NCBI RefSeq assembly: GCF_900177615.1
Contig: NZ_FXAP01000002.1
Location: 558,001-622,000 of the forward strand
Source of the DNA: Plantibacter flavus
GTDB taxonomy: Bacteria; Actinomycetota; Actinomycetes; Actinomycetales; Microbacteriaceae
Direction: 5' to 3'
DNA length: 64,000 bases
Shown here: piece after piece, positions 23,699 to 55,914 of the stretch
Layout of the letters: each line of letters starts with the position of its first letter
Numbering within the stretch: the first letter of the stretch is position 1
Notes under the pieces: generated by a model
What the model was told of the DNA's origin: nothing
Seen by the model: only the letters and a program-made list of their open reading frames with translations
Database searches by the model: none
Program-made: the position numbers and the translations under genes

Positions 23699-23716
23699 AC
23701 GCCCGAGTGCTGCCCG

Positions 23717-39163: not shown

Positions 39164-39632
39164 CTGTGCCTGGAACAGGGGTGATGTGTCGTCCCGATAG
39201 CTGTGCGCTACACCCGTTTCGCCCTCTGCGTCAAGCAAGTTGTACACAGGTGACCCCCGTTCTCCCCAACGTTCGACACAGGATCGAAAGAACTTTCCAC
39301 ACACAGCCTGTGGAATCAGAATCTCCTGGTCAGAGCCGTGTTACACGACAGAAAAACTTCTCTCTCCACAGGGTTTCCCACAGCTTGTGCACACGACACG
39401 CGGCGTTTCCCCCGATCTCTCCACAGAGTTATCCACAGGCAGAGTTGGTTGTGGAGACGAGTGGCCCTATCGTGAGTCATCGGCGTCTCGGAACAGCCGG
39501 ACGAGCAGGCTGAGCAGCCCTCGTCCGTAGCCCTCGAGCGCCCCGCAGGTCCCGTGCGTGTCGCATGCTCCTGCTACACCTGAGTCGTCACCACCCGCAC
39601 CACCCGAGTCCACATCGAGAAGGGATGTCCAC
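39164..39632. promoter_or_regulatory. dnaB upstream region with clustered DnaA-box-like 9-mers
   Basis: This 470-base gap has no gene. One exact DnaA box TTATCCACA lies at 39429-39437. Close variants include TTGTACACA (39240-39248), CTTTCCACA (39293-39301), GATTCCACA on the reverse strand near 39309, CTCTCCACA (39362-39370 and 39417-39425), TTTCCCACA (39374-39382), TTGTGCACA (39385-39393) and a reverse copy near 39449. It is A/T-richer than its surroundings. It may control dnaB by DnaA, or act as a DnaA-titration or origin-related site; dnaA and dnaN are not in the window. Confidence 0.6.
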
Positions 39633-41012
39633 TTGTCGATCGCTCACCTGGGCCGCTCCGAAGGCGGCGGATCGTACGACGAGCCGCGCGGCAATGAGCG
39701 GGTCCCTCCGCACGACCTCCTCGCGGAGCAGAGTGCACTCGGCGGCATGCTGCTGTCGAAGGACGCGGTCGCCGACGTGGTCGAGACGCTCCGTGGGGTG
39801 GACTTCTACATCCCCAAGCACGAGGTCATCTACGACGCCCTCCTGACGCTGTACTCGCACGGTGAGCCCACCGACGTCATCACCGTCACCGACGAGCTCG
39901 TCAAGACGGGCGAGCTGTCGCGCGCCGGTGGTGCTGACTACCTCCACACGCTCACGAGCCTCGTGCCGACCGCGGCGAACGCCGGCTACTACGCCCGCAT
40001 CGTCGCGGAGCGCGCGCTGCTGCGTCGTCTCGTCGAGGCCGGCACCCGCATCGTGCAGATGGGGTACGCGGCCGAGGGTGAGGCCGTCGAGCTCGTCAAC
40101 TCCGCTCAGGCGGAGATCTACGCCGTCTCGGGCAACCAGGAGGTCGAGGACTACGTCCCGCTGACCGACGCGGTGAGTGCGGCGATCGATGAGATCGAGG
40201 CCGCCAAGCACACCGACGGTTCCATGACCGGCGTCCCGACGGGCTTCCGCGAGCTCGACGAACTGACGAACGGTCTGCACCCGGGTCAGCTCATCATCGT
40301 CGCCGCCCGACCCGCTATCGGTAAGTCCACGCTCGCCCTCGACTTCGCACGTGCCGCTTCGGTCCACTACAACCAGCCGTCGATCTTCTTCTCGCTCGAG
40401 ATGGGGCGCAGCGAGATCGCGATGCGTCTCATGAGCGCTGAGGCGTCCGTGCCGCTGCAGCTCATGCGTAAGGGAACGGTCGACTCGCAGGACTGGACGA
40501 AGATCGCACAGGTGCGCGGCCGCATCAACGACGCTCCGCTCTACATCGACGACAGCCCGAACATGACGCTCGTCGAGATTCGCGCGAAGTGCCGTCGACT
40601 GAAGCAGCGCGTGGGTCTGAAGATGGTCGTCATCGACTACCTGCAGCTGTTGACGTCCGGCAAGCGGGTCGAGAGCCGTCAGCAGGAGGTCTCGGAGTTC
40701 TCCCGTGCGCTGAAGCTCATGGCGAAGGAGCTCCAGGTCCCCGTCATCGCGCTGTCGCAGCTGAACCGTGGTGCTGAGCAGCGTGCCGACAAGATGCCGG
40801 CACTGTCCGACCTCCGTGAGTCGGGCTCGATCGAGCAGGACGCCGACATGGTGGTGCTCCTGCACCGTGAGTCCGCCTACGAGAAGGACAGCCCGCGAGC
40901 GGGCGAGGCCGACCTCATCATCGCCAAGCACCGTAACGGACCGACGCGCACGATCACCGTCGGCTTCCATGGGCACTTCTCGCGCTTCGCCGACATGGCG
41001 CCGGGGATGTAA
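39633..41012 (+). CDS. dnaB: replicative DNA helicase
   Basis: A 459-residue ring helicase unwinding DNA at the fork. The N-terminal primase-interacting domain (AEQSALGGMLLSKDAVADV) is followed by the RecA-like core: Walker A-type ARPAIGKST, SLEMGRSEIAMR, Walker B-like MVVIDYLQLL and the LSQLNRGAEQR loop. No intein is present. TTG 39633, with GAAGGGA upstream, gives the usual start SIAHLG; an upstream in-frame ATG (39558) would add a Pro/Ser-rich leader. The C-terminus (FADMAPGM) is intact, and a Tn7-like element begins 21 bases after its stop. Confidence 0.96.
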   Translation: MSIAHLGRSEGGGSYDEPRGNERVPPHDLLAEQSALGGMLLSKDAVADVVETLRGVDFYIPKHEVIYDALLTLYSHGEPTDVITVTDELVKTGELSRAGGADYLHTLTSLVPTAANAGYYARIVAERALLRRLVEAGTRIVQMGYAAEGEAVELVNSAQAEIYAVSGNQEVEDYVPLTDAVSAAIDEIEAAKHTDGSMTGVPTGFRELDELTNGLHPGQLIIVAARPAIGKSTLALDFARAASVHYNQPSIFFSLEMGRSEIAMRLMSAEASVPLQLMRKGTVDSQDWTKIAQVRGRINDAPLYIDDSPNMTLVEIRAKCRRLKQRVGLKMVVIDYLQLLTSGKRVESRQQEVSEFSRALKLMAKELQVPVIALSQLNRGAEQRADKMPALSDLRESGSIEQDADMVVLLHRESAYEKDSPRAGEADLIIAKHRNGPTRTITVGFHGHFSRFADMAPGM

Positions 41013-41028
41013 GTGTGAACGCGCCACG

Positions 41029-41082
41029 CAAAGTGTCGCTTGCTCAAATAACTTGTCGTTTCGTGGCCGCGGCGACACTTTG
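41029..41082. repeat. inverted repeat at dnaB 3' side, overlapping the putative transposon end
   Basis: CAAAGTGTCGC (41029-41039) and GCGACACTTTG (41072-41082) are exact complements, with a GCCACG/CGTGGC pair also available nearby. It could be the dnaB terminator, a member of the palindromic family seen at 14.4 and 25.5 kb, or the transposon end with TGTCG-type sites. Confidence 0.7.
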
Positions 41083-41127
41083 GGTGACAACTGGGTCGTG
41101 AGACTCGTGGGTCCGAGTGTCTCGGAC

Positions 41128-41343
41128 TCAGTCTTCGTCGAGAGGTCCGATCCACTCGTGGATGGTGGACACCGGTTGGTCGACTGCCCTGGCGATGTCC
41201 TCCACGGGGACGCCATTCAGGTGAGCGATGCGGGTGAGGTTGTTGCGTTTATTCACCCACCGCTGTGTGCGCTGTTCGGCGTCTCGCACCACTTCATTGG
41301 CGCCCAGCACTCCTTCCAGGAGTGCGTCATACAGCCTGGTCAT
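41128..41343 (-). CDS. small helix-turn-helix protein
   Basis: A 71-residue protein. The C-terminal half reads like a DNA-binding helix-turn-helix (NNLTRIAHLNGVPVEDIARAVDQPVSTIHEWI), and the N-terminus is an amphipathic helix. AAAGGGA just upstream supports ATG 41343. A perfect palindrome TTGTTTGCAAACAA lies 75 bases upstream, a possible autoregulatory site. It lies between the transposon end and tnsA, so it is cargo or a transposon regulator. Confidence 0.55.
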   Translation of the reverse strand: MTRLYDALLEGVLGANEVVRDAEQRTQRWVNKRNNLTRIAHLNGVPVEDIARAVDQPVSTIHEWIGPLDED

Positions 41344-41417
41344 TGCTCGTCCCTTTCTGTCGTTGCCTTCCCGCGGTGGGCATGGCAAGCTTTCAGCAGG
41401 GACGAGCCTGGGTCGTG

Positions 41418-41431
41418 TTGTTTGCAAACAA
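41418..41431. promoter_or_regulatory. 14-bp perfect palindrome upstream of the small HTH gene
   Basis: TTGTTTGCAAACAA is self-complementary over all 14 bases and stands out in a GC-rich setting. It could be the operator of the divergent or local transcripts. The remainder of the gap 41344-41579 shows nothing else. Confidence 0.5.
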
Positions 41432-41579
41432 GACCTGTTATCTGCCTGGCGTCTGAGAAACGCCTTGCCGAGACCGAACATGAGCGGCGGGAACCGCAGC
41501 GTTCGGTGCACTGTGCAGTAACACCTTGGGAGCAGCGTAACGCTGCGCCCGTGGAATGGCTACTGATCGCGCCTGGAGT

Positions 41580-42650
41580 TCAGTGTGTCTCCCAGTAGCT
41601 CTTGGCCCACTTCCGGAGCGATTGCACCTCCGCTGGGTTCTGTTGCGGTCCGTGGGTCAGCTCCCACGCGGTGATCAGCGGATCTGTCCGATGCCCGTTG
41701 TCCCACTGGGCGGCGGTTGTGAGGATGGTCGGATCGGCCGGTTGCACGAGCTGCACGGTCGCATCCGCGGGAGCGCATCGAACGTAGGGCAGGCTCCGCA
41801 GACGCAAATTGATGAAGGCGCTGTAGAGGATGACTGGTCCGTGGATATCGAACCGGTGTTGCTCCTCATATCGGTTTCTCGGGGTGGTGTCTTTGAGGGG
41901 GGCCTCGATGCCGTCGTGACCGGACCGCAGGATCCTTGCAGCCTTGCGGTCACCGACGTGGACGACCGCGGCGTCGCCGATGAGTTTGGTCAGCTCCCTC
42001 AGCTGTGTGCTGCGCGTTCGGTCACTGCGCCATGAGAATCGCATGCCGCCCGGCCCCGGGTAGTTCGTCAGATGCCAGTCCCACAAGTCGTCGAAGTCGT
42101 CGACGACCCACCCGGCTGACTCTCGTTTCACACATCCGGCCGGAAGAAGGCCGAGCAATTTGCTGACTCGGGATTGGCTGATGCCTAGACCCACGCCAGA
42201 ACCCATCAGGGGTGGTTCGTCGCCAGAGGGCGCGGGTGCCGCGAAATCCCCTTGCCGGAACGGTGTCGATGTCACCATGAGATGACGCACCAGCGGAAGC
42301 AGTGACCGGTGTTTCGTCGTCACCTCGACCTGGGGCGGCGGCCACAGGGCACCACCGACACAGCACACGCGATCGCGGAGACCGACGTAGGCGATGCGGC
42401 CATCGGCAGCGATCTCCTCAAGCGCAGGCGTGACACGGTCGACCAGGTACAGCACGTGGGTCGCAGCCCCAGTGAGGCCGCCGAGATCGTCGAGGATCCG
42501 CTTAACCGTGTTGATCCGAGCTGCGGTGAAAATCTGGTAGCAAGCCGTCTCCCGCCAGGTATTGAGCCACACGGTGTCTCCGAGGCTCGCCATCACGTCC
42601 ACCCACGCCGCATCGAGGATGTCGTACGCGATCTGTCTGTTCGCCGCCAT
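41580..42650 (-). CDS. AbiEi-like helix-turn-helix protein (putative antitoxin/regulator)
   Basis: A 356-residue protein with a helix-turn-helix around GISQSRVSKLLGLL in its middle. The following TNYPGPGGMRFSW, the VHVGDRKAARIL stretch and the closing RTDPLITAWELTH resemble regulators that accompany AbiEii-type nucleotidyltransferase toxins. No nucleotidyltransferase gene lies beside it, so if this is right it is an orphan. It is read away from tnsA. The match is by remembered pattern only and could be wrong; a plain DNA-binding regulator is the fallback. Confidence 0.4.
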   Translation of the reverse strand: MAANRQIAYDILDAAWVDVMASLGDTVWLNTWRETACYQIFTAARINTVKRILDDLGGLTGAATHVLYLVDRVTPALEEIAADGRIAYVGLRDRVCCVGGALWPPPQVEVTTKHRSLLPLVRHLMVTSTPFRQGDFAAPAPSGDEPPLMGSGVGLGISQSRVSKLLGLLPAGCVKRESAGWVVDDFDDLWDWHLTNYPGPGGMRFSWRSDRTRSTQLRELTKLIGDAAVVHVGDRKAARILRSGHDGIEAPLKDTTPRNRYEEQHRFDIHGPVILYSAFINLRLRSLPYVRCAPADATVQLVQPADPTILTTAAQWDNGHRTDPLITAWELTHGPQQNPAEVQSLRKWAKSYWETH

Positions 42651-43003
42651 GTCCGCAGCCTAGAACCCAAGCGGTCGTTTTCGGTACTCGGGGTTCTGCG
42701 CCAACAGTGATCTTCTGCTGCGATTCGGCAGACCGCCATGCCATTTCGACGGATCGCTTTCGACTCGTTTACGAGTTGATGTTCGGAGCCAATTGACTCG
42801 TCATCCCTCTCGTGGAGCCGGTCAGAGTCGCTCCTTGGTGGATCAATTTCTCACGAGAACTGTGCGCAGGCAGCTGCTGCGGCCTACGGTTTCGATCAAC
42901 GACCACGCCGCGATCAGAGCGCGCGGTTCGTTCATCTCGTCGCCCCTCGTCCGAGTATCCCCGGGGCAGCTTCGTCATGCCCGGATGCGGCAGAAAGGTC
43001 ATC
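42651..43003. promoter_or_regulatory. divergent control region upstream of tnsA
   Basis: No convincing gene lies in this 353-base gap. It holds the perfect palindrome ACTCGTTTACGAGT at 42763-42776 and related short words GGTCGTTTTCGG (about 42673) and GGATCGCTTTCG (about 42750). These could be regulator or TnsB-binding sites between the reverse AbiEi-like gene and tnsA. Confidence 0.4.
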
Positions 43004-44002
43004 ATGAGCGCCCGCACTCTTCGCGCGTCACAGCACAACATTCCTCAGTCACGCACTGAGCCGTCCAGCTCTCCGGCGCACGCCCCGGCCGAGCTGCCGG
43101 CGCCGTCATCGTGGGAGTCAGCGCTGCCCCCCAGTGAGCACCCCGACACGGTTCCGCCAGAGCTGCAGTCAGCATTGGAGAAGTTCCGGCTGGCCGGCAT
43201 GCTCGGGGAGGGCACGCGTGTGCGACTGTTCAGGCCGATCCGTGGACCCCGTCGACTTCGGCTGCCGCAACGGTCTCCGGGTGACGTCGGGGTGAGGGTC
43301 TTACTTTCCCGCGACGGGCGCACAGGCTACGCTCGCCGCCTCAACCAGGTCAGCCTGGCCGACCTGGTGCACAGCCACCCGATGCGCGACTTTTCCAGAC
43401 GCCGGGCACAGAGTAACAAGCCGGTCGCGTTCTTTAGCCGGACCGTCGGTGACATGATCGCTTGCGAATCCCAACACGAGCGCCGCTTCGCGCTGATCGC
43501 CGACTGGCATCCGAGCGTGGCGTTCATCGCCGCGCAACCATTCACCATCGACTTCCCCGCCGGCAACGACATTGACAGCCACACACCGGACTTCGCGCTC
43601 ATCACCACCAGCGGAACCGTGGTCGTCGTGGATGTGAAGTGGCCATCCCACGCCGTCGACCCCGACACGGTCCGTCGCCACGAGCTGATCGAGCGCACCC
43701 TCGCGCGTGCGGGAATGCAGCACGCAGTGTGGACCGGCGCCCCCATGTCGCTCACGCAGAACCTCGCCAACTTCGCGGCCGCCCGGGTACCGGAACACAA
43801 GATGCGTGAGCTGGAACCAAAGCTCCTCGCCGCCCACCGGCCCGGACGCACCGTCTCCCAGGTGCTGGAGGACGCCGCTGACACCTGTCAGGTGCCCTGG
43901 CTGGAAGGACTCGTCGTGGTGCGCCGGATGCTTTGGGACCACCGCCTCACCGTCGACATGGCGGTCCCCTTCACGGTCGATTCCGAACTGTTCCGATCGT
44001 GA
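43004..44002 (+). CDS. tnsA: TnsA-like transposon endonuclease
   Basis: A 332-residue protein that in Tn7 nicks the 5' ends of the transposon, enabling cut-and-paste. The restriction-endonuclease-like core shows E155 in ACESQHERRF, D196 in THTPDFALI-type context and K212 in VDVKWP, matching the E...D...VK catalytic set of TnsA. The Pro/Ser-rich N-terminus (about 60 residues) is not conserved. ATG 43004 follows AAAGG. The stop overlaps the tnsB start (GTGA). Confidence 0.87.
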   Translation: MSARTLRASQHNIPQSRTEPSSSPAHAPAELPAPSSWESALPPSEHPDTVPPELQSALEKFRLAGMLGEGTRVRLFRPIRGPRRLRLPQRSPGDVGVRVLLSRDGRTGYARRLNQVSLADLVHSHPMRDFSRRRAQSNKPVAFFSRTVGDMIACESQHERRFALIADWHPSVAFIAAQPFTIDFPAGNDIDSHTPDFALITTSGTVVVVDVKWPSHAVDPDTVRRHELIERTLARAGMQHAVWTGAPMSLTQNLANFAAARVPEHKMRELEPKLLAAHRPGRTVSQVLEDAADTCQVPWLEGLVVVRRMLWDHRLTVDMAVPFTVDSELFRS

Positions 44003-46164
44003 GCGACATTCGATGGATTCGGCCAGGGATCGAACTCGACTGGCACAGCACTCGCATGATCATCCAGCACGTCGGCGCCTATGTCGTCCTCACCCGGCTC
44101 GACGGCACCCAACCCACTGAAGTGCCCGTGACCGACATCGCACGCGCGCTGCGTGGCAACAAGGCACCCCAGGATCTCGCGCATCTGCATGACATCGAAG
44201 ACCGTCTCACGGAACGCTCCAAGGCGCGGCTGGATCACGACTCCGACCTGCTCCACATCATGCTCACCGGCCGGCGCGCACACCAACCCGACACGGATGC
44301 TCCCGCACCCAACCTCGATCCAGCCCGCGTCCCCGAAGGGCTTCGCCGGCGCAGACTCGCCAAACTGCTCGCGGAACAGACACGCGACCGCGGCTCAATG
44401 AAGGGATTCAACGTGCTCCACAAGAGCGAGATGCGAAGACTGCAGCGGATCATGAAGCGGTGGCGCGACGGACAGAACCTCCTCGACGGCAGGTACCGTA
44501 AACCCCGAGCCTGGCGAACCGATGATGAGGTCATGGACGCCCTGCTGAGCTTCATGAACGACCAAGCCGTGCGCTCGACGAAGTCCGACAGTGCACTCGT
44601 TCGGGCATTCCAGATCCACGCGACCACAGCCCACCCGACGTTGCAACTGCCCTCAACTGCAACCCTTCGTCGGAGGGTGCAGGAGCGGCGCGGCGCCTGG
44701 TCACACCTCGGGGCGACCGCGAAGAACCGCATCTCCCAGACCAACGTTCCGAAAGCCTCGGGAGTGACGCGCCTGGCGACCCGTCCCGGGGAGCTGGTGT
44801 TGTTCGACACCACGAAGTCGAATGTCTGGGTGAAAGACCCCAGAACCGGTCGCGTCGTCCGCCTCGATGTCACGCTCGCCATCGATCTCGCCACCCGATG
44901 TGTGGTGGGACTGGCTATCACGTACAACACGACGAAGTACGCGATCGGACTGTGCCTGGCCGATGTGCTGCGACCCAAGACCGCGGCCCTGGCATCCGAG
45001 TGGGCAGAGGATGAAACCTCCATCGCCGACCAACCGTTCATCGGCAGACCCGGCGCGTTCGTGTCGTTCCACTCGACCGCGTTCCACCCCGAGGGTGTCG
45101 TCGTCGACAACGGCAAACAGTATGTGTCCACGTACATGACGGCGCAGATGGCGCGGCTCGGGATCCACTACGAACCGCAACGCTCTTACAACCCGACCGA
45201 CAAGGCGCAAGTCGAGCGCGTGTTCCGCACGATCAAGGACATGTTCGAAGCACTAATGCCGGGCTTCACGGGCGGATCTGTCCACGAACGAGGCACCGCA
45301 CCAGAAGCCGAAGACCTGATGACACCAGGCGAATACGAACGACGGCTGCGCCAGTGCATCGACCTGTACAACCACCGCACACATGAGGGCCTGGTCCTGC
45401 CCGAGGACCCGTTCGTGCGGTTGAGCCCCTACGTGATGTTCAGCATCCTGGCCGAGAAGATCGGAGCTTTCGCAGACGTCGAGTACCAGTACGACTGGGT
45501 GCGGTTCCTTCCCTCGATCACGGCGAAGATCGAGCCGAGCCGAGTTCGCGTGCGACTGCTGAACTACAAGAGCCCGATCTTGCGAGAGCTCCAGGGCGAC
45601 CCGGTCGTGATGAAGACCGGAAACCTGCGGGTGTTCTACGACCCGTTCGACCTCCGCATCGCCTGGTGCTTTGACGCCGATGGCACGCTGCACCCGCTGC
45701 GGTGGCACTACTTGAACGAACACACTCCCCGGTTCGGGGAGATGCACACCACCCACGTCGTCGAGAAATACGCCGGCAAGAAGGTCAGCCGAAACGACGT
45801 CGAACGCATCCTGCTCGAGATCTTCGCAGGCAAACACGACCAGGGTATGCCGGAAGGGATCCGACACGACGAACTCGCCAACAACCTCATGCAAGCACGA
45901 ACGGACCGACTCACCGAATCCCAACGAGATGCAGCCCTCCAGGAAGAACCCGACGCAATACACGAACAGCGCCCGCCTGCGTCCGAACCTCGACCCCACG
46001 ATCGCGGCGTCGGCGACAGTGCCAACACGTATGAACCGCCGCCCGTCGAACCATTCGAGCCCGATGACACTTCCGAAGCGCAGGACGAGCAGGGCCCGCA
46101 GCGCTCCGCGCGACGTCCGCGAGGTCTGCGCCCGTGGTGGCACCGTGACCGGCCCGAATCGTGA
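43999..46164 (+). CDS. tnsB: TnsB-like DDE transposase
   Basis: A 721-residue strand-transfer transposase of the Tn7/Mu-type rve superfamily. The catalytic triad is D270 (VLFDTTKS), D370 (VVVDNGKQY) and E406 (QVERVFRTIK), a D...D-35-E spacing. N-terminal DNA-binding helices precede the core (ARRRRLAKLL-like segment and TLRRRVQER), a beta-barrel domain and an acidic, Pro-rich tail follow, the latter likely to contact TnsC. GTG 43999 overlaps the tnsA stop. Confidence 0.9.
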   Translation: MSDIRWIRPGIELDWHSTRMIIQHVGAYVVLTRLDGTQPTEVPVTDIARALRGNKAPQDLAHLHDIEDRLTERSKARLDHDSDLLHIMLTGRRAHQPDTDAPAPNLDPARVPEGLRRRRLAKLLAEQTRDRGSMKGFNVLHKSEMRRLQRIMKRWRDGQNLLDGRYRKPRAWRTDDEVMDALLSFMNDQAVRSTKSDSALVRAFQIHATTAHPTLQLPSTATLRRRVQERRGAWSHLGATAKNRISQTNVPKASGVTRLATRPGELVLFDTTKSNVWVKDPRTGRVVRLDVTLAIDLATRCVVGLAITYNTTKYAIGLCLADVLRPKTAALASEWAEDETSIADQPFIGRPGAFVSFHSTAFHPEGVVVDNGKQYVSTYMTAQMARLGIHYEPQRSYNPTDKAQVERVFRTIKDMFEALMPGFTGGSVHERGTAPEAEDLMTPGEYERRLRQCIDLYNHRTHEGLVLPEDPFVRLSPYVMFSILAEKIGAFADVEYQYDWVRFLPSITAKIEPSRVRVRLLNYKSPILRELQGDPVVMKTGNLRVFYDPFDLRIAWCFDADGTLHPLRWHYLNEHTPRFGEMHTTHVVEKYAGKKVSRNDVERILLEIFAGKHDQGMPEGIRHDELANNLMQARTDRLTESQRDAALQEEPDAIHEQRPPASEPRPHDRGVGDSANTYEPPPVEPFEPDDTSEAQDEQGPQRSARRPRGLRPWWHRDRPES

Positions 46165-47318
46165 ACGCCTCCCGGTTCTCTGTCACCCCAGACGACGACC
46201 CCAACGAGTTACTCACCGCCGAGGACCGCGCCTGGATCAGTGACGTGTACGCCGACGATGTCCTCGACCCTGGGCGCGTTACTCCCGCACAACTGGCGGC
46301 GATGAACGCTCGCGACCGAGAACGCTACCGGATGCAGCGCACCCGGTATCTGCGCATGGTGCCGTTGCTGGAGACCAGCGTCGTCAGGGACGTCATGGGC
46401 AAGCTGCGCCTCATCGCCAACTCCGCCATCCGCTCGGACCTGCACCAGCAAGACATCCCGATCCTGAACGGAGAGCCCGGTGTCGGGAAAACGATGATGC
46501 TGAAAACGCACGCGGCGGAGGAGATGATGCGCCTGGCGTTGCACCGCAGCATTGAACTCGAGGACGGCACCGCCAGGGCGCTCACCACGTTCCGGCCTGT
46601 CATCTACGCCCACCTGAAGAGCACCATGACCCGCTACGACGTCATCCGGCTGTTGTGTGATGAACTCGGCTGGCCCTCTGACCGGAACCCGCAACGTGCG
46701 TTCGAACGAGCCGTCGCGCAGTGCGGTGTCCAGCTGGTCATCATCGACGAGATTCAGCACGTCAACTTCGATGGCAAGACCGGGCGACATGTGCACAACA
46801 TCATTCGTTGGATGTCGAACTTCGGCCTCCGGGTCGTCCTCGGCGGCACCGACGCCGATGGGGTGCTGAGCGGGGTGGGGGCTCCTGCTGTTGAGGTCGC
46901 CGCACGAAACTCCCGCGGCCGTTGGATCCGTGTCGACGTCCCGAAGATGGAGATCGGAGGACGGCGGGAACTTACCGCTTGGGTTGACCTGATCTTCTCC
47001 TTCGAATCCAGGCTCCGGTTAACGCAGGCTCCGCTGGAGGAGGGCTGGCTGGCCGACAACTTCGCCGAGTACATGTGGGCCAGAACCCAGGGATACCTGA
47101 ATTCTCTCGTGTTGCTGATCAATCTTGCCGCCGCGACAGCCATCGAGACCGGTGCTGAGACCATCGATCGGAAGATCCTCGACAGCGTCGAACTGGAAGA
47201 CGAAGTCGAACGTCAACGCCCGCAACGCATGGCGAAGTTCGAAGCGGACAATCCTGCACCACGGCGTGCTGAAGGTGACGATGACGGGCCGGATCTGCAG
47301 GACCGTCAAGCATCGTGA
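46161..47318 (+). CDS. tnsC: TnsC-like AAA+ ATPase
   Basis: A 385-residue ATPase linking target recognition to the transposase. Walker A is GEPGVGKT (residues 104-111) and Walker B is VIIDEIQH (D196, E197). The sensor region has VVLGGTDADGVL. It is closer in size to TniB/TnsC of Tn7-like elements than to the 555-residue Tn7 TnsC. GTG 46161 overlaps the tnsB stop. Confidence 0.88.
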   Translation: MNASRFSVTPDDDPNELLTAEDRAWISDVYADDVLDPGRVTPAQLAAMNARDRERYRMQRTRYLRMVPLLETSVVRDVMGKLRLIANSAIRSDLHQQDIPILNGEPGVGKTMMLKTHAAEEMMRLALHRSIELEDGTARALTTFRPVIYAHLKSTMTRYDVIRLLCDELGWPSDRNPQRAFERAVAQCGVQLVIIDEIQHVNFDGKTGRHVHNIIRWMSNFGLRVVLGGTDADGVLSGVGAPAVEVAARNSRGRWIRVDVPKMEIGGRRELTAWVDLIFSFESRLRLTQAPLEEGWLADNFAEYMWARTQGYLNSLVLLINLAAATAIETGAETIDRKILDSVELEDEVERQRPQRMAKFEADNPAPRRAEGDDDGPDLQDRQAS

Positions 47319-49342
47319 CCGTCGTACTGGATACGCCGATGCGACTTGGTACGCCCGTGCGGCTGCTCGAGGGGGAATGGTTGCATAGCGCCATCAGCCG
47401 GTGGGCTCACTCGTTCCGTGTTTCGCGAGCGGCCATGTTCGACGCGTTCGGGTTGCAGAACCTGCTCGCAGCTGCGGTCACCAACATCGGAACCCAGTTG
47501 CACCCGGCGATCGCCGCGAATATCTCCTACGCCACCGGCATCGAGGAGGCGCGACTTCGTGCGGCGACGATGGAGGTGTTCGACGGCAGCCTGCTCGTGC
47601 TCCGCGATCGGAGGAAGGGACAGCCGGCAGCGGGGATATCGAAACGTGGACCGTGGTCATGGCAGGCCGGCACGAGGTACTGCCCCGACTGTCTGCGAGA
47701 CGAACCGGGAGTGTTCCGCAGCCTCTGGCGCAGCCCCTGGATATACGCGTGTGTCGCACACCGCCGCATCCTCCTCGATGCCTGCCCCACCTGCCAAGGG
47801 GAGGTCGTTGAGATGCGCGGACGGAACACTGATCTGTTCAACCCCTCCAGCTGCCGGGCCCACATCGGACTGCGCGGCGCAACGCGACGAACCTACTGTC
47901 GGGCGCCGCTCGAGGACACCTGGGAGCACCTGCGTCTTGCGCCAGGATCAGCGCCATTGGCTGCGCAAGAAGCGATCTTCGCTCACCTTCGAGCAGGCAC
48001 CGGCGAGCACATCGTCACGCTCCTCCAACCCGTCGCAACGGCGCTTCGCGGCGCCGGTGCATTCGATGACGTCAGCTCGTTGAGTGGCCTCGATGAGCAA
48101 GAACTGCGTGGTCTGTTCGACGAGGAGAAACACGTCGGCATCAGCGCGCCGAAGAATGCCTACGCGATGGCCGGGCTCATCGGCGCGGCATGGGCCCTCG
48201 TGAATATGGGCGAGTTCGTCAGTGCCCCGGTGGTTCGACGGACCACGTTCGCCCGGCCGCCCGCCCACGTGCCCAGGGGCGCCGGATATGGGCCGGGAAG
48301 CCCCACCGAGCTCCTCACCCGCTGGCCGGGTGCGTCGGATGAGCTCCGAGGGTGGGTGCTTCGCGCTCACGACCAGGACCTCACACTCACCCAGCGCATC
48401 CTCTGGGACACCGCCATCACCCCGGCAACCATGGACGCCCACCGAGCTCGGACCGTGTATTTCCAGACGCGGAGGGACCGCATCCCGGAACTGCTCTGGC
48501 CGGCCTGGTGCAGCCGCTTCGACCTTGGTGGCAACGTCGACGCCACGACACTGGCGCACGCGCTCACCATCGCTGTGCGCGCGGTCGGGTTGAACGATCA
48601 AGCACGCGACCACGAAGAGAGCAACCTCGCGGCCGTCCTGCGAGCGAACATGCTGGGCACGCCCGCGCAGACAACTGCGCTCCTCGCCGGCATCAGCGAG
48701 CTTGCGCGCACGATCGATGACGGTCCCAACCCCATCAACTATCGCCGCCGATTGGAACTGCCCACGGCGGAAATGTTGCCACGGACACACTGGGAGACGC
48801 TCGCCGACAGCGTCCACACCGACCCTGGCGGAGCACCGCGACTGCGGCACGCCCGCCGCTACCTGTGGCAGCGCCTCAGCGCGACGTCCTCGGACCAGTT
48901 GCCCGCAGAGCTGCAGCTCGGGTTCACCCACGATGACGTCGCCCAGTACACCGACTTCCGAACGCGGATGACGCTCGAACTCCAAGAAGAAATTGACCGA
49001 TACGGGCAAGCATTCCTCCAAGCGCACCAGATCTGGGAGCCCGTGACGGCAACCCCAGCAGTGAGCGCCCACCTCAACTGGCCAGGCACGGAAATCCTCG
49101 AACTCAACATCGAACTTCTGCACGCAATGTTGGACGACGGCATCCGCACCCACAGAACCTTCGCCCAGGCACTCGGCGTTTCGACCCGTCAGGTAGTTCG
49201 AGCAATCGATGCTTGTCCCCCATCGACAAGCAGAGCCGTCACCTCTGTGGAGTGGGAACAGCTACTCGTACCGGTCCCGCCCAACCCGCTTTCCTCGTTC
49301 TTCGTCAGCGAACCCGAATCAACGTGGAGCGAGCCATGCTGA
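47315..49342 (+). CDS. tniQ: TniQ/TnsD-like target-selection protein
   Basis: A 675-residue protein with the TniQ start pattern (RLLEGEWLHSAISRWAHSF) and two CxxC pairs at about residues 123/126 and 157/160 that form the zinc-binding region (RYCPDCL, ACPTCQ). The large size and long C-terminal region, which contains helix-turn-helix-like stretches, match TnsD-type proteins that bind a chromosomal attachment site rather than short TniQ partners of CRISPR effectors. No Cas gene is present. The likely target is the dnaB 3' end. Confidence 0.85.
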   Translation: MTVVLDTPMRLGTPVRLLEGEWLHSAISRWAHSFRVSRAAMFDAFGLQNLLAAAVTNIGTQLHPAIAANISYATGIEEARLRAATMEVFDGSLLVLRDRRKGQPAAGISKRGPWSWQAGTRYCPDCLRDEPGVFRSLWRSPWIYACVAHRRILLDACPTCQGEVVEMRGRNTDLFNPSSCRAHIGLRGATRRTYCRAPLEDTWEHLRLAPGSAPLAAQEAIFAHLRAGTGEHIVTLLQPVATALRGAGAFDDVSSLSGLDEQELRGLFDEEKHVGISAPKNAYAMAGLIGAAWALVNMGEFVSAPVVRRTTFARPPAHVPRGAGYGPGSPTELLTRWPGASDELRGWVLRAHDQDLTLTQRILWDTAITPATMDAHRARTVYFQTRRDRIPELLWPAWCSRFDLGGNVDATTLAHALTIAVRAVGLNDQARDHEESNLAAVLRANMLGTPAQTTALLAGISELARTIDDGPNPINYRRRLELPTAEMLPRTHWETLADSVHTDPGGAPRLRHARRYLWQRLSATSSDQLPAELQLGFTHDDVAQYTDFRTRMTLELQEEIDRYGQAFLQAHQIWEPVTATPAVSAHLNWPGTEILELNIELLHAMLDDGIRTHRTFAQALGVSTRQVVRAIDACPPSTSRAVTSVEWEQLLVPVPPNPLSSFFVSEPESTWSEPC

Positions 49343-49388
49343 ACCTCCCTGTCGTTCCCCGAGCCCATCGGCTGCCGCTGGTGCGATC

Positions 49389-49904
49389 ATGACCCGCGAA
49401 GCGGATCCAGGTGATGGTGCCCTGTCCGCGGTACAGATCGCGTTCCTCATCGAATCAGGTACGTTCACGGCCGAACGTCTCGCCGAGGTCTCAGAGAGGG
49501 TCGCTCGAGGTGACCTCGAAGCACGCGAGCGAAAGACCCGCCAGGACACGATCGACGCGTCGCTGAGCGCAAACGTGGTGGCCGAACGGCTCGGTCTCGA
49601 TATAGCCGAGCTGCGACGACTGCGCAGCACAGGCAACCTGTATGCCTTCCGCTCGCGGGGGCGGTGGCGATACCCGTGTTGGCAGTTCACCGACGACAGG
49701 CGGCAGCTGCTGCTGCCCCACCTGGCATTCCTGATCGCGTCGATTCCGGTCGACATGCACCCGGCGACGGTGCTCGGCTTCATGGAGACTCCGCAACGAA
49801 GCGCCCAGGTCGACGGCAGACGGGTGACGCCTGGTGAGTGGCTACTTCGCGGCGGGGACCCGCAGGTGCTGCGCGACATCTTCGAGGCATTCCTGATGAA
49901 CTAG
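49389..49904 (+). CDS. small HTH protein following tniQ, unknown
   Basis: A 171-residue protein. The middle (LSANVVAERLGLDIAELRRLRSTGNLYAF) looks like an excisionase/MerR-type helix-turn-helix, followed by RWRYPCWQF. The C-terminus (VTPGEWLLRGGDPQVLRDIFEAF) resembles the toxin-binding end of Xre/MbcA-type antitoxins, but no RES-type toxin adjoins. It starts 47 bases after tniQ in the same direction, so it may be a fifth transposition gene that regulates or modifies target choice. Confidence 0.55.
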   Translation: MTREADPGDGALSAVQIAFLIESGTFTAERLAEVSERVARGDLEARERKTRQDTIDASLSANVVAERLGLDIAELRRLRSTGNLYAFRSRGRWRYPCWQFTDDRRQLLLPHLAFLIASIPVDMHPATVLGFMETPQRSAQVDGRRVTPGEWLLRGGDPQVLRDIFEAFLMN

Positions 49905-50664
49905 CGACATTCGCCCACCAGTCTCGCGGGATCGAGGCGAAGTGGTCCGGCGCAGCGGATCTTGCGGAGCCGCTCGCTGCGAAGGCCGTCTGGGCCTCGC
50001 CCCAAGCGCGAGTGTTGAGGGCTGAGCGGGTGCGGTACTCGAGACTCGAATACCTGCGGTTGCGAGACTCGCGTTGGGTTGCCGGCACTTTGCTCGGGGA
50101 TTCTTGCGGCCAGAGACTCAAAATAGGCAGTGGACTCGTCGAATACTAGGAACCCTAGGTCGAAGCCGGGGCGCTGTGCTCGGTAAGCGCTGATCTTATG
50201 CGAATGCTTGACCACGACGGTTGCAAAGTGATCCACGTAGGCGCGGTAGTTGTGGTCCTGTTCCGTTGGTAGCCCGCTGTCAACCGCGGCCAGTAGCGAA
50301 GCGTTGGGAGTCATCTGCTCGAACCCTGCCTCGCGCAGTTCTCGGAGAATGGCCGCTTCGCGGGCACGCGTCGCATCCTTCCTACCGGGCCGCGGGTGGT
50401 CGTCAACGATCATCACCTCGAGGAGGAGACGATGGGTTAGGTCCTCGAAATCAGGACGTTCCCGCTGCACGAGTGTTTCTCCACGAAGTGAAGCAAGCGC
50501 GTGCGGTAACCGTCCGCAGCGATCGCGTGGTCCCACAGCCGCCAGTACATCGGCCCGTCCTTGACGGCATCGAACAGATCCGACCCCTCGATCACCACGA
50601 ATGAGCAAGAAGTGTCACGATGACGCGGCCAGTGGTTAAAGAGCCGACGATGGCTGATGTCCAT
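49901..50664 (-). pseudogene. frameshifted gene of unrecognised family
   Basis: Coding-like reverse-strand sequence is split between two frames. One frame runs from ATG 50664 through SFVVIEGSDLFDAVKDGP and YRTRLLHFVEK, then stops at 50437. A second frame takes over near 50475 with ETLVQRERPDFEDLTHRLL and continues through VMIVDDHPR, NYRAYVDHFATVVVKHSHK and LGFLVFDESTAYFESL to a stop at 49901; its last 60 residues look poorly conserved, suggesting another shift. A one-base frameshift near 50475 explains the split. No family is certain. It lies inside the proposed transposon end. Confidence 0.5.
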
Positions 50665-50670
50665 GGGCGG

Positions 50671-50697
50671 GGCGGCTTCCGAGCCGCCCTGTTTTCC
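50671..50697 (+). terminator. hairpin plus T-run near the right transposon end
   Basis: GGCGGCT and AGCCGCC are separated by TCCG and followed by CTGTTTTCC. It is a good intrinsic terminator for forward transcription, which would keep transposon transcripts from entering the flank. Confidence 0.55.
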
Positions 50698-50794
50698 TTC
50701 CCGCCGAGCCGCCCGCCTGTTGTGACACAAAGTCTCGCCCGGTTAGGTTGGGAGCATTCCTGGTCAAATCGATCAGATGGGGAGGAATACATAT

Positions 50795-51361
50795 ATGTCT
50801 ATCCGGAAGGCTTTCGGGGGGATTGCGGCGCTCTGTGTCGCATTGGTCATCACCGGCGCAGCGACAGCACCCGCGGGTGCCGCGGAGAACGACGGCACCG
50901 GCGACGGCGACGTCGTGCAGCTGGAGTTCAACGGCCAGACGGATTTCACGGACATGGGTCCGGTGCACATGGTCATCGACGCCGAGACCAACACCATCAC
51001 GAGCGTGACGCCGATCGAGGGTGTCTCGTATTCATCGCGGCAGGGTGAGGCGCGCTTCGTCGCCCCGAGCGAGGAATCCGCCGCTGATCCCGTCGCCGCA
51101 CGTGCGCCGTCAGTCGGCACGACCTGCTCGGGCGGCAACGTTGCCTGCTGGCGCGGTGTCAACCTCGCGGTGGACCGTTCATTCGTCGGCACCGGAACCG
51201 CGACGGGCAACTGGCCCGGCCGTGGCTCCTACTACTCGGGTGGATACTCCGGTTCGGTCTGCTACCTGAGTCCGGCGACCACGTGCAGCGGGACCGTCCC
51301 CGCGGGCAGCCTCATCTCGATCGCGGGTCCACTGACGGGGGTCAGGGTCACCCTGGGTTAA
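50795..51361 (+). CDS. small secreted protein, unknown
   Basis: A 188-residue exported protein. The signal peptide is clear (MSIRKAFGGIAALCVALVI, ending near PAGAAEND). The mature part is Gly/Ser/Tyr-rich with four cysteines (TTCSGGNVACWRG, SVCYLSPATTCSG) that may form two disulfides. No family recognised. GGGAGG nine bases upstream supports ATG 50795 over the in-frame ATG at 50777. A clear terminator follows. Confidence 0.65.
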   Translation: MSIRKAFGGIAALCVALVITGAATAPAGAAENDGTGDGDVVQLEFNGQTDFTDMGPVHMVIDAETNTITSVTPIEGVSYSSRQGEARFVAPSEESAADPVAARAPSVGTTCSGGNVACWRGVNLAVDRSFVGTGTATGNWPGRGSYYSGGYSGSVCYLSPATTCSGTVPAGSLISIAGPLTGVRVTLG

Positions 51362-51382
51362 CAGCTGCTGACCTGACACGGA

Positions 51383-51415
51383 GAAGGGGCCCGGACATAG
51401 TGTCCAGGCCCCTTC
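51383..51415 (+). terminator. intrinsic-type hairpin after the secreted protein gene
   Basis: GAAGGGGCCCGGACA and TGTCCAGGCCCCTTC enclose three bases, followed by a short TTC stretch. Strong stem 22 bases after the stop. Confidence 0.75.
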
Positions 51416-51713
51416 TTCACGTTCTGACAGTTGGCACCGGCGCCCCAAGCGCAGCGCTTGCACTCGGGTGTGCGAGCACGTGAGATGGGGACGAATCGTC
51501 TACGAACAGCCCGGGTGGACGCGCCGCTGAACTACACCGACTGGTCGTCTACGCGCAGAGACAGCTCCGTGGCGGACGGGCGGGTGATTGCTGAGAGCTT
51601 CACCTAGCTAGCGCTACGAGCGCTCACAGTCCCGATCCGTTGTTCAGACCAAAAGGCGGCGCAACGCGTCTGCCAGAGTTTTCGCTGTCGGTGCGTGCCT
51701 GTACGGTCGCGGC
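51416..51713. other. gap without a recognisable gene
   Basis: I see no convincing coding frame, repeat or RNA in this stretch. The last 40 bases probably hold the promoter and ribosome site of the next small gene. Confidence 0.4.
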
Positions 51714-52019
51714 ATGAATACCTCCGCTCGGAACACCGCGCACACACTCCTCGACTTCTACTCTGGATACACCGGGGCCGAGTCGGATGACGCCAGAACG
51801 CGTGCTTTCAACACATCGATGGAAAAGCTCAACCACGACGGGGCGATCAGCGCAGAACTGGGCGACCAGGACGAGCTGTCCTTGGACGTCTTGCCGCTGC
51901 TGCTTGCATCCTCAGTCAGCTACGAGTGGTTGTTCTCCCAGCTCACTGCTGCCACGGGCAAGGATGCAGCCGAGCTGAGCTTCGAACTGAGGGCTTTCAT
52001 CGACTCACTGCAGGACTGA
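51714..52019 (+). CDS. small hypothetical protein
   Basis: A 101-residue acidic, helical, cytoplasmic protein (LDFYSGYTGAESDDARTRAF, LSLDVLPLLLASSVSYEW, FELRAFIDSL). Its codon pattern is coding-like and it has an ATG, though no clear ribosome site. No family recognised. Confidence 0.5.
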   Translation: MNTSARNTAHTLLDFYSGYTGAESDDARTRAFNTSMEKLNHDGAISAELGDQDELSLDVLPLLLASSVSYEWLFSQLTAATGKDAAELSFELRAFIDSLQD

Positions 52020-52195
52020 TTCGTCATCCCACCGAGTTCGAACGGCGTTCAGCGGCGTAGCTCTCCGAGGTGCCGGGCAATCGCCCGCAACGTATGAACT
52101 GAGTTCTGGGCTGTCACAGCAGGATCGTCGCGCTTGCCCTGTGCAGTAGACCCGGCAGCCGGCATAGGAATGAGCTTGGCGTACTCCGAGAGGTC

Positions 52196-52741
52196 CTAGC
52201 GAAGGTGCTCTACGTAGTGGCGCTCGGGCTCGTTTCCCCCTGGCTCCCATACGTACGCCGCGCGAAGCTCGCCAACCGCAGGAGCACCGAGACTCCCTCC
52301 AGGCGTACTGTTTTCGTCATCCGGAAAATGCCAAAAGACCCGTCGGCGTGCACCCGGAGCCAAATCAAACGGGACGGCGAACAAGCGCCCAAGCGCTGGC
52401 CCAATGGCGTCTTGATCGGACTGCGCCTCGAACTCGCGTTCTACGATCGACAGCACAATGCGGCGAGCGGTCGTGCGTCCGAAGTTCGCGATCACCAGGT
52501 CAAACGCAGGGGACCCGCCGACACTCGTCACGACATCGAGACCGACGTACGGCCGCGTCTGATCCTCGCTGTTCTGCGACTCGCGCTTCGCGGAATCACG
52601 AATTTGAATCGAGGTGAGTCTGAGTTGACGGTATGTCAAAGCAATCGCCACGATCGCCACCAGCGCGCCGACCGCGGCGGCGATCGCACCGATCCACCCG
52701 GGAACTAGTTCAACTGCGCTGGCATGCTCGGTTATCCACAT
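52196..52741 (-). CDS. single-helix membrane protein, unknown
   Basis: A 181-residue protein with one N-terminal membrane helix (GWIGAIAAAVGALVAIVAIAL), then a coiled stretch (YRQLRLTSIQIRDSAKRESQ) and a soluble beta-rich domain starting RPYVGLDVV. This layout is common in small proteins of unknown function in accessory regions. ATG 52741 is chosen; a TTG six bases upstream is possible. It overlaps the upstream reverse gene by about 32 bases. Confidence 0.6.
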   Translation of the reverse strand: MWITEHASAVELVPGWIGAIAAAVGALVAIVAIALTYRQLRLTSIQIRDSAKRESQNSEDQTRPYVGLDVVTSVGGSPAFDLVIANFGRTTARRIVLSIVEREFEAQSDQDAIGPALGRLFAVPFDLAPGARRRVFWHFPDDENSTPGGSLGAPAVGELRAAYVWEPGGNEPERHYVEHLR

Positions 52742-53315
52742 GACCAAACGCTATTGCAAGCAGTCGCGGGTCCAGGAGAGTTGCAGCGGGCCCTGATCCG
52801 ATTGGCCTCTGGCGAGCGGGTTCAGACGTAGCAATCCCCAGATCAATCACTCGAACTGTCATGAGAGATATTATCAGCTCAGTAAGACCATGAGTTGCGT
52901 TAGATGCAGGATCTCGCGACCGATGGCTTTTCCCGCGATTCCGCGCGACGCCGACGCCCCTGCATGAGACGTTGTGACGGTGCTCCGGAGGGGTTGACCC
53001 GAGATAGCGCGCGACCTGCGCAGACGAAGAACGAAGGCGGCCGCCGGTAGGAGTACCGACGACCGCCTCTAATTCTGCTGATAGCGACCATGCCGGGGCG
53101 CGCCTCTCAGCGCCCGTCGCCGACGCGACCGCGAGGCGAACGGTAGCCTTGGCGCGTCGAAAGTACTCCGCAAGATCAATCGCGCCGCGCGGGTAATTGG
53201 TGACGTTCTCGACGTCCTCACGAGTTGCCTTGAACCCTTCGTGCCAGCCAGCTGCGAGCGACTGACGCACGCTATTGCGCTGTGTCTCATCGAGCTGTGC
53301 GAAAGCTCCGGCCAC
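52710..53315 (-). CDS. hypothetical protein with antitoxin-like N-terminus; C-terminal half doubtful
   Basis: GTG 53315, behind GAGGAG, opens a 201-residue frame. The first 60 residues (FAQLDETQRNSVRQSLAAGW, TREDVENVTNYPRGAIDLAEYFRR) resemble the small antitoxin-like proteins often paired with Fic-type or other toxins. After about residue 70 the sequence loses coding character, and a hairpin lies at about 53034-53072 inside the frame; another frame stops at 53069 just before it. A frameshift near the end of a short real gene is likely. Confidence 0.4.
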   Translation of the reverse strand: MAGAFAQLDETQRNSVRQSLAAGWHEGFKATREDVENVTNYPRGAIDLAEYFRRAKATVRLAVASATGAERRAPAWSLSAELEAVVGTPTGGRLRSSSAQVARYLGSTPPEHRHNVSCRGVGVARNRGKSHRSRDPASNATHGLTELIISLMTVRVIDLGIATSEPARQRPIGSGPAATLLDPRLLAIAFGHVDNRACQRS

Positions 53316-53519
53316 TGCTCCTCGACGGTGAACCGCTAAGTCATAGCCGCGCCTTCTTTCAAGAGGGATACTCCGGAGCTACACGCCAGGCGTAGATCGT
53401 ATCGGCCAATGGGATCCAGTCGTCGCGCGCCAGGATCCGCCCGTTCGACGATCGGCTACCGGACGGGTCATAGGCCGCTCCGCAGTTGCTGCCAACGGAC
53501 CCCTTCCGCGCAGATGCAG

Positions 53520-54386
53520 TTACAGCGCGAATCCGCCGTCCGACGTGAGTACTTGTCCTACGACCCAGCTTCCCGCTGGCGTTGCCAGCCACCCGATGAG
53601 TTCCGCTGGGTCCCCTGGTGTGCCGACGCGACCGAATGGTGTGCTTGCGAGGTACTGGTTGAAGTTCTCGAAGGAGCGATCGGTGGTGTCGGGGTCCATG
53701 TATCCGGTGTTGACCGGACCGGGGTTGATCGTGTTAAGGACGATTCCAAGCTCGAGGAGCTCGGCGGCGACTGTAGCGGTGACCCCGGCGAGTGCTGCCT
53801 TGCTTGTGGCGTAGGCGACCTCTCCGCGCATAGCTCCATGAATCTGTCCGGACGTCATCCAGAACACGTGACCCTGCGCCTCGGCGTATGGCGCGTTGCC
53901 GGTGATCCGGTCTCCAGGCCGGCGCGGTTCGTCAGTTCGAGGTGCACGGAGCCGTGCGAACTCGGCGGTAAGCAGCAGGGTGGATCGGGTGTTGACTTCC
54001 CAGAACGCGCTCAGCCGCTCCGGTGTCATGTCGAGAATGCTGCCGTCGTTCCCGCTCTTCGCGTGGTTGCAGACGAGGACGTCGAGCCCTCCGGCGAGGC
54101 CGGCGGCGGCGGCGATGAGGTCGGGGACGGTGGAAGGGTCCGACAGGTCTGCGGGGACGTCTGCGAACTGGGCGCCCTCTGTGAGGTGGGCACGGACTTC
54201 GGCGCGGACCGCGTCGATGTCGTCTCCGCCCCAGGGGAGGTCGAGGTCGTGCGGGCCGTGATGGTGGATGGCGACGTTGGCGCCGAGTGAGGCGAGCTTC
54301 GTGGCGACGGCGAACCCGATGCCGCGTCGTCGTGAAACGCCGGTGACGAGGGCGGTCTTGCCGTGCAAGGGCGGGGAAGTGGACAT
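53520..54386 (-). CDS. short-chain dehydrogenase/reductase
   Basis: A 288-residue SDR. The cofactor motif is TGVSRRRGIG, and the catalytic residues lie in WMTSGQ and the following YATSK. It resembles the 3-oxoacyl-ACP-reductase-like oxidoreductases (GKTALVTGVSRRRGIGFA), with an insertion around RTDEPRRPGDRITG. ATG 54386 has no strong ribosome site. No operon partner is obvious. Confidence 0.82.
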   Translation of the reverse strand: MSTSPPLHGKTALVTGVSRRRGIGFAVATKLASLGANVAIHHHGPHDLDLPWGGDDIDAVRAEVRAHLTEGAQFADVPADLSDPSTVPDLIAAAAGLAGGLDVLVCNHAKSGNDGSILDMTPERLSAFWEVNTRSTLLLTAEFARLRAPRTDEPRRPGDRITGNAPYAEAQGHVFWMTSGQIHGAMRGEVAYATSKAALAGVTATVAAELLELGIVLNTINPGPVNTGYMDPDTTDRSFENFNQYLASTPFGRVGTPGDPAELIGWLATPAGSWVVGQVLTSDGGFAL

Positions 54387-54803
54387 GGTGAACCTTTCGA
54401 TCGCCCCGAAGAGGGCGTGCTGGGTAGGAATCGAAGAAGGTTCAGGACTTCATAACTCACATGCTAGTAGGGCGAATTGCAGGAAACGACTGTCAGCCAA
54501 CGCCGTCTAGGTTAGCCGGTCGTTCAGTGGGCGATTTTCAGAGAGTGCAGGCAGGACCTTCGCGCCCGAGCTGGCCTGGATCGCCGAGGAGCCTTGTGTC
54601 TCGTAAACCTATAGGTTTCCGAGACGTTAAGCAGCCTGGCGGGAATCCGTATTGCGTGTACTACCAACCTCTTTTTGGGCTGAGCGGGGCACTGGGCCCG
54701 TCTTCTAACTCGGCGGTACTACGACGTGCCAACCGGGAGGACTGAAACCGCTAGCTGCGCACCACGCCGCGTCTGAGGGTCTGGCTTATGGGTGCTGGAG
54801 CGG
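54387..54803. other. gap without a recognisable gene
   Basis: This 417-base stretch holds no coding frame I can defend. It contains only scattered A/T-richer words that may serve as promoters for the SDR on the reverse strand. No repeat or RNA structure was recognised. Confidence 0.35.
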
Positions 54804-55106
54804 TTACGTGTCAGCGAGATTACGTAGCGCTGCAATGTGTCCGTCGAATGCAGCTCGTCCACGGGGGGTAAGCGAAACGGTAGTGGTGCGACGGGAATCT
54901 GACCGTTCGAGTGATGCCTGCTTCGAGGTCTGCATGTAGCCGATCTCGATGAGGTTGCGAATTGTCTTTGACAGGTTCGCGTCGCTCACTCTGAGGGTGC
55001 TGACGAGGGTGCCGAAGTCGGCGGTGTCCAACGGTCTCAGTAGCGCGCAGAGCCGCAACCGCGTCAGAGCGTGGATTGCCTCATCGAAGCGTGGTTCAGG
55101 GGGCAC
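54804..55106 (-). CDS. winged-helix transcriptional regulator (MarR/HTH_34-like)
   Basis: A 100-residue winged-helix protein (LRLCALLRPLDTADFGTLV, LRVSDANLSKTIRNLIEIGY, SLTPRGRAAFDGHI). These short one-domain regulators usually pair with a neighbouring membrane protein of unknown role. It starts on GTG inside the end of the membrane protein gene (11-base overlap), so the two are cotranscribed. Confidence 0.82.
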   Translation of the reverse strand: MPPEPRFDEAIHALTRLRLCALLRPLDTADFGTLVSTLRVSDANLSKTIRNLIEIGYMQTSKQASLERSDSRRTTTVSLTPRGRAAFDGHIAALRNLADT

Positions 55107-55859: not shown

Positions 55860-55914
55860 GTCGCAGTACAAACGGCCGCTGTCTTTGGGGTCGATCTGAC
55901 TGGAGGAGGCCGCA

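Follow-up and report, generated by a model that had tools for sequence, protein, structure and literature searches.

A transposon operon stands beside dnaB, the gene of the replicative helicase, in a 64,000-nt stretch of DNA (the window), C2:558001-622000 of an 11-contig, 4.3-Mb Plantibacter genome (G000) from the Microbacteriaceae, a family whose members live in soil and on plants. The operon, tnsA-tnsB-tnsC-tniQ, follows dnaB closely and is read in the same direction, with tnsA closest to dnaB. A preliminary description of the window had proposed the 3' side of dnaB as a possible essential-gene attachment site, and empty sites together with the placement of related TniQ genes support it: very probably, the dnaB 3' end serves as the chromosomal attachment site of a Tn7-like transposon made up of TnsABC and a long TniQ/TnsD-type selector. 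The features that carry this reading are as follows.

39558..41012, + strand: dnaB, replicative helicase, 484 aa, probable attachment gene (Pfam DnaB_C 345.3 bits, DnaB N-terminal 104.6 bits; stop codon TAA at 41010-41012)
41009..41013, + strand: left copy of the 5-bp target duplication GTAAG, which contains the dnaB stop codon (right copy at C2:668032-668036, outside the window)
41014..41081, + strand: dnaB-proximal element end, terminus TGTGAACG (repeats AAAGTGTCGC at 41030-41039 on the + strand and 41072-41081 on the - strand)
41014..64000, + strand: dnaB-proximal 23 kb of element A (end matches, GTAAG duplication)
43049..44002, + strand: tnsA, start codon provisional (NCBIfam TnsA_like_Actin 113 bits, cut-off 110)
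43933..46164, + strand: tnsB transposase, start codon provisional (Pfam Mu-transpos_C 24.9 bits, cut-off 21.7)
46161..47318, + strand: tnsC AAA+ ATPase (Pfam TniB 24.3 bits, cut-off 22.4; AAA_22 above cut-off)
47315..49342, + strand: tniQ/tnsD-like target selector, 675 aa (Pfam TniQ 60.5 bits, cut-off 27)
50725..50732, + strand: ACACAAAG, earlier proposed as the right end, not an end (1 found in 64 kb, 0.49 expected)

The profile matches and the gene order bear out the operon as first described, with tnsA on the dnaB side, and its TniQ is indeed long. As in Tn7-like transposons, a TnsB DDE transposase, a TnsC ATPase and a TniQ-domain protein are encoded in one operon. TnsB matched the TnsB chains of the PDB (E 6.6e-08). 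The TnsA endonuclease was recognized through NCBIfam TnsA_like_Actin, and a Pfam search with TnsA returned no match.

Repeat finding inside the window alone was unproductive, because the distal end of the element lies outside it. Two near copies of the 26-bp stretch that spans the dnaB junction lie 69 and 77 kb away on this contig, and they revealed the terminal sequence TGTGAACG, followed by AAAGTGTCG repeats. The pattern TGTGAACGN{10,30}GTGTCG matched five times in the 4.3-Mb genome, at C2:599014(+), 668031(-), 668037(+), 676222(-) and C6:24011(-), against 0 matches for the backward control. Element A occupies C2:599014-668031 (69,018 bp), with GTAAG directly outside both ends. Its TGTGAACG terminus begins one base past the dnaB stop, at 41014. 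The distal end is 46 kb beyond the window, which holds only the dnaB-proximal third of the element. Both ends of A show the TGT...ACA form with arrays of short sites that marks Tn7-like elements (TGTGAACG ends, AAAGTGTCG repeats), and a 5-bp target duplication is present here (GTAAG/GTAAG) and in 10 further genomes. The AAAGTGTCGC repeats are likely TnsB sites. Ends like the dnaB-proximal one also occur in G001, G002, G003, G077 and the Leifsonia genome G399. The tnsA, tnsB, tnsC and tniQ genes of A fit into the first 8.4 kb past dnaB. A search of A for the end repeat located it nowhere but at the two termini. On that ground we rejected a composition of several nested elements; A may still include decayed units.

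These ends are not those first proposed. The preliminary description had a 9.7-kb element with TGT...ACA ends flanked by CAAAG, one of them 21 bases past the dnaB stop. CAAAG is present at both places, but CAAAGTGTCGC (41029) is a repeat internal to the end, whose terminal TGTGAACG lies 15 bases earlier, and the right sequence ACACAAAG occurs at chance level. We therefore rejected the CAAAG-bounded ends. The related dnaB junctions inspected show TGTGAACG or other ends, and empty sites fit those, which refutes the CAAAG unit and leaves it practically no probability as the mobile element.

The empty sites came from a comparison of seven Plantibacter genomes (G000-G006). The dnaB stop and TGTGAACG are at most one base apart in G000, G001, G002 and G003; in G004 the end is of the same kind, but its terminus is degenerate. 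G002 reads TGTAG, a 31,482-bp element and TGTAGCCCTCT, and G003 reads TGTAG, a 10,053-bp element and TGTAGCCCTCT; the empty G006 has TGTAGCCCTCT once, in GGGGATGTAGCCCTCT, with a single TGTAG. Likewise, the element of G004 terminates at the boundary between CGTTCACA and AGTAGGGCGAG, and the empty G005 has CAGTAGGGCGAG once. In both filled/empty pairs (G002 and G003 with G006; G004 with G005) the joins are exact, as predicted from the corrected ends, and the CAAAG join expected earlier was not seen in its literal form. Beyond the duplication, the comparison of the right flanks extends over six bases only, since ends of another kind start there (TAGGTTCC in G005, TGTAGGTTCC in G006); these two genomes are therefore empty only for the end type of the window.

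Elements were also found stacked behind dnaB. Directly behind the right GTAAG of A lies element B (C2:668037-676222, 8,186 bp), followed by TGTAG, which is the dnaB-end sequence of the sister genomes; no tns match was found in B at E 1e-3. G001 has two tandem elements (5,364 and 12,907 bp), and each of the three junctions reads TGTAG. Neither G001 nor G003 has a TnsB match (E 1e-15) or a TniQ match (E 1e-10) anywhere in the genome; nonetheless, both carry well-ended elements at dnaB.

To extend the comparison, we scanned 36 dnaB flanks for TGT ends close to dnaB that had an inverted partner flanked by an identical 5-mer, each against 20 base-shuffled controls. The flanks were picked mostly for a visible end-like sequence or tniQ and give no frequency estimate; a pattern survey that matched 262 of 398 genomes included places other than dnaB and was not used as a frequency either. 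Eleven flanks showed a 5/5 duplication and an end similarity above the control maximum, by margins of 2 to 11: G000, G001, G002, G003, G077, G110, G115, G204, G327, the Leifsonia G399 and the Curtobacterium G406. The narrowest margin was that of G110 (20 vs a control maximum of 18). G400 was borderline (15 vs 14); G318, with the same values and a start 31 nt downstream of the ATG, was not counted; the G004 element, whose terminal bases differ, was accepted by eye. For the Curtobacterium elements, TGTTGTCG was considered as the end and rejected, since the duplications of G110 and G406 put the end at TGTCG.

Measured from the ATG of the F-x-D-M codons of dnaB, the eleven insertions fall at 13-20 nt (standard deviation 1.9); measured from the dnaB stop, they fall at 0-11 nt (standard deviation 4.0). 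The two spreads differ with a Levene p of 0.035 in eleven related genomes. Nine different 5-mers are duplicated among the eleven, which is expected if the site that is read lies elsewhere. Six elements hold TnsABC and TniQ inside their bounds (G000, G002, G399, G406, G204, G110), and in G115 the stretch searched held only a weak TniQ fragment. In G001, G003, G077 and G327 no TnsB or TnsC match was found in the stretches searched, and these elements, with good ends and duplications, were probably moved in trans.

The preliminary description had also suggested looking for other TnsABC-TniQ elements at this spot, and the family provides them. Among 398 genomes of Microbacteriaceae, 10 had a TniQ match at E<=1e-10, and nine of these copies lie 6.3-68 kb downstream of dnaB on the dnaB strand. 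In named genomes of Plantibacter, Leifsonia, Curtobacterium and Frondihabitans, three of which are also in the 398-genome set, all 10 TniQ loci (9 genomes) lie 6.3-93 kb downstream of dnaB on its strand. Combined, these searches gave 17 distinct chromosomal TniQ copies for the family, 16 of them on the dnaB strand and downstream of it, G303 being the exception; the naive probability of this placement is <1e-29, a value to be read with the relatedness of the genomes in mind, which makes the counts non-independent and all p values naive. End-like repeats also stand directly after the dnaB stop in Curtobacterium UNCCL20, MCSS17_008 and C. caseinilyticum. Order-wide, only two of 297 genomes besides the window's own matched TniQ at E 1e-20 (G666 and G423, each of another family). 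G666 has TniQ about 15 kb downstream of dnaB and TGTCGAG directly after the stop; no duplication partner was found in the stretch fetched. Its dnaB is split by two insertions (inteins or similar), and a TnsABC-TniQ set lies downstream.

TnsB relatives were found in 23 of the 398 family genomes. Seven diverged copies outside the preceding set could be placed relative to dnaB (G108, G185, G238, G281, G303, G371, G007). Those of G108, G185, G238 and G281 are on another contig than dnaB and that of G303 is 241 kb off; those of G371 and G007 are on the strand opposite to dnaB, 17 and 46 kb downstream, with no end motif seen by eye in 420 bases at the dnaB end.

We then considered which protein would read dnaB. 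The TnsD protein of Tn7 binds the final 36 bp of glmS, insertion occurs about 25 bp away and the insertion point is sequence-independent, according to the accessible text of PMC2918618. The same spacing would place the TniQ site on the dnaB codons [IV]TV[GA]F[HQ]G[HM][FY]SRF (10 of 11 rows printed). The structural model of TniQ (predicted local distance difference test, pLDDT, 79) has as its best Foldseek match the TnsD of a TnsD-TnsC-DNA complex (8v32_J, E 3e-4); whole-chain TM-scores are low (0.22/0.30), and the likeness is confined to the first part. There, 17 TniQ/TnsD chains match at VIA Z 8-13, from residue ~10-18 to residues 202-465, with top values of 13.4 (7oxd) and 12.0 (TnsD 8v32_J), so that the first part of the chain combines a TniQ domain with a TnsD-like fold. 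The C-terminal part (pLDDT 86) gave weak matches only, DNA-binding helical domains among them. By this analogy, TniQ is the likely reader of the dnaB 3' coding end.

Another protein might read dnaB instead, with TniQ as a bridge, as for TnsF in Tn6022. The candidate lies behind tniQ:

49389..49904, + strand: HTH_17-like accessory protein (Pfam HTH_17 21.3 bits, below the cut-off of 27)

Its gene adjoins tniQ in the window and is near tniQ in G002 and G399, and relatives of the protein occur in the G002, G399, G110 and G406 stretches; separate selectors bridged by TniQ are described in the available text of PMC10293859. However, no relative was found at E 1e-4 in the stretches of G204, G286, G318, G248, G092 and G389, all of which have TniQ behind dnaB. 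In addition, TniQ has 675 aa, and the same text takes proteins of >400 aa as direct readers in dual loci, with a warning that such prediction is uncertain. We therefore consider a separate reader unlikely.

With TniQ as the reader, we propose that it would bind the last dnaB codons (the F-H/Q-G-x-F/Y-S-R-F-x-D-M region) and recruit TnsC, and that TnsAB would insert the element 13-20 nt past the F-x-D-M codons, with tnsABC-tniQ oriented as dnaB. The 5-bp duplication would leave dnaB intact, as it either covers the stop codon or comes after it. Each insertion would restore the site, so that newer elements, among them tns-less ones probably moved in trans, would probably stack between dnaB and older elements.

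The same place seems to be used repeatedly by a second, diverged lineage. In G389 a complete TnsABC-TniQ set is bounded by dnaB on one side and, 13.3 kb away, by an inverted end on the other; the ends are of the TGTAGGTTCC type, and the Tns/TniQ proteins are 26-30% identical to those of the window. Similar ends stand after dnaB in G006, G392 and G005 (degenerate) and, in G004, past the first element; G227 and G058 perhaps have them too. No duplication was found for TGTAGGTTCC-type ends. On balance, we lean slightly towards the dnaB 3' end being a site shared by at least two diverged TnsABC-TniQ lineages in Microbacteriaceae, with TGTGAACG/TGTCG-type ends 13-20 nt and TGTAGG-type ends ~20-28 nt past F-x-D-M, one candidate in another family (G666), and stacked islands of autonomous and tns-less elements. 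In the G389 stretch (C1:194001-213500), at 7466-14277 and 14844-18509 of that stretch, the lineage adjoins a gene whose 1221-aa product matches the Tmn model of PADLOC.

Besides the relatedness of the genomes, several observations weigh against dnaB as the attachment site or TniQ as its reader. The TniQ relative of G303 is 239 kb from dnaB and that of G423 538 kb; TniQ relatives also occur on plasmids (50 records; the best three are from Curtobacterium, at 30% identity); and a mini-element of G000 with GCGGT on both sides is not located at dnaB. Only 6 of the 16 dnaB-side TniQ copies were placed inside a duplication-bounded element, and 23 of the 36 flanks (G318 included) had no convincing partner end, often with only ~19 kb fetched; two of these, G171 and G262, look empty. 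The fold search with the C-terminal part of TniQ gave no confident match (best VIA Z 4.7, the DnaA DNA-binding domain). Finally, conservation between hosts is lower in the 45 nt that run up to the F-x-D-M ATG (24/45 invariant, 10 genomes) than in the preceding 45 nt of dnaB (30/45, 9 genomes). Because the dnaB end is not unusually conserved and second-lineage duplications are missing, we slightly lowered our confidence both in the dnaB reading as a whole and in the two lineages.

The modest conservation would also suit a region that is merely a permissive hot spot for islands, entered with no sequence-specific reading, and the stretch from dnaB to the next shared gene does hold varied foreign DNA in G000, G003, G004 and G005. 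Against such a hot spot stand the nearly constant distance from the same codons, the nine different duplications, the tandem stacking, and the TniQ copies, of which 16 of 17 are at dnaB and all 16 on one strand; we consider it very improbable.

In Tn7, too, the target duplication is 5 bp and tnsA lies on the glmS side. The element of the window resembles Tn7 in its TnsABC and TniQ-domain selector, its TGT ends, its 5-bp duplication, its insertion just past an essential gene and the position of tnsA on the attachment-gene side. It is not Tn7 proper: its target is dnaB, not glmS, the proteins are only remotely alike (Tn7 TnsB 7pik, E 0.00024), and insertion occurs 0-11 bp past the stop vs ~20 bp past glmS in the accessible text of PMC2918618. 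With Tn7017, a type I-F3 CRISPR-associated transposon, it would share TniQ-directed insertion beside a conserved gene, which is parE in that case (PMC11406308, available text); the gene and the host group differ, and no CRISPR-Cas genes were noticed here, with no search aimed at them. Tn6022 likewise has TnsABC and TniQ and a fixed chromosomal gene, but inserts in comM with a separate TnsF reader, as far as the available text of PMC10293859 goes, whereas dnaB is intact here. The host phylum is that of the Actinobacteria-dominated clade 2 of Tn7-like transposons (Benler 2021), none of which is experimentally characterised according to the accessible text of that survey (PMC8649781), which names no dnaB site. 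The attachment genes given in the accessible text of a 2024 review are glmS, yhiN, comM, parE and tRNA genes (PMC11406308).

dnaB as a Tn7-like site was not found in the searchable literature; the supplements of Faure 2023 and Benler 2021 were outside that scope, and therefore our claim is 'not found', not 'absent'. As far as found, the kind of element is known and dnaB is new as its attachment site. It would add another essential gene to the few known Tn7-like attachment genes, for actinobacterial elements that a large survey calls uncharacterised in its accessible text (PMC8649781). It also suggests a protein-only, gene-sparing integration site for Actinobacteria, and the series of diverged TniQ proteins with one target would be useful for learning how TniQ reads DNA.

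The remaining features of element A in the window are the following.

41128..41343, - strand: 71-aa helix-turn-helix-like protein (by eye), adjoining the element end (open reading frame list)
41580..42650, - strand: 356-aa protein with no Pfam match (relative in the corresponding position of G002, 36% identity)
53520..54386, - strand: cargo, short-chain dehydrogenase (Pfam scan of cargo)
58234..59478, - strand: cargo, D-alanyl-D-alanine carboxypeptidase, Peptidase_S11 (Pfam scan of cargo)
62076..63866, + strand: cargo, penicillin-binding protein transpeptidase (Pfam scan of cargo)

Relatives of the 71-aa protein occur in G002 (43%), in G003 (39%, partial) and in the mini-element (46%). The Pfam scan covered 18 open reading frames of A and 2 of B, chosen out of those listed. 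The cargo of A as a whole includes type IV pilus-type genes (T2SSE, T2SSF, prepilin peptidase), the penicillin-binding protein and D-Ala-D-Ala carboxypeptidase, a sodium:solute symporter, a MacB-like permease and an IetA-like AAA ATPase adjoining a DUF6414 protein. No Cas family was among the Pfam matches of the 20 scanned proteins, no search aimed at Cas having been made.

The mini-element of G000 (C6 ~23361-24011, 651 bp) has TGTGAACG-type ends, one terminus degenerate, and holds a small helix-turn-helix-like gene, a second copy of which lies just outside. Curtobacterium VKM Ac-1395 has tniQ downstream of dnaB and no detectable TnsA, TnsB or TnsC in the 39.7 kb searched. On the Curtobacterium plasmid NZ_CP106880.1 (47664-79649), a TniQ-family gene (30% identical) lies behind an AAA ATPase gene, near genes like those of cyclic-oligonucleotide-based anti-phage signalling systems (CBASS) and restriction genes; no dnaB is annotated in that stretch, and a search of it for known end sequences led to nothing. 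On C8 of G002, just past the right end of the element, lie broken pieces of another tniQ and of an HTH_17-like gene, probably the remains of an older dnaB element.

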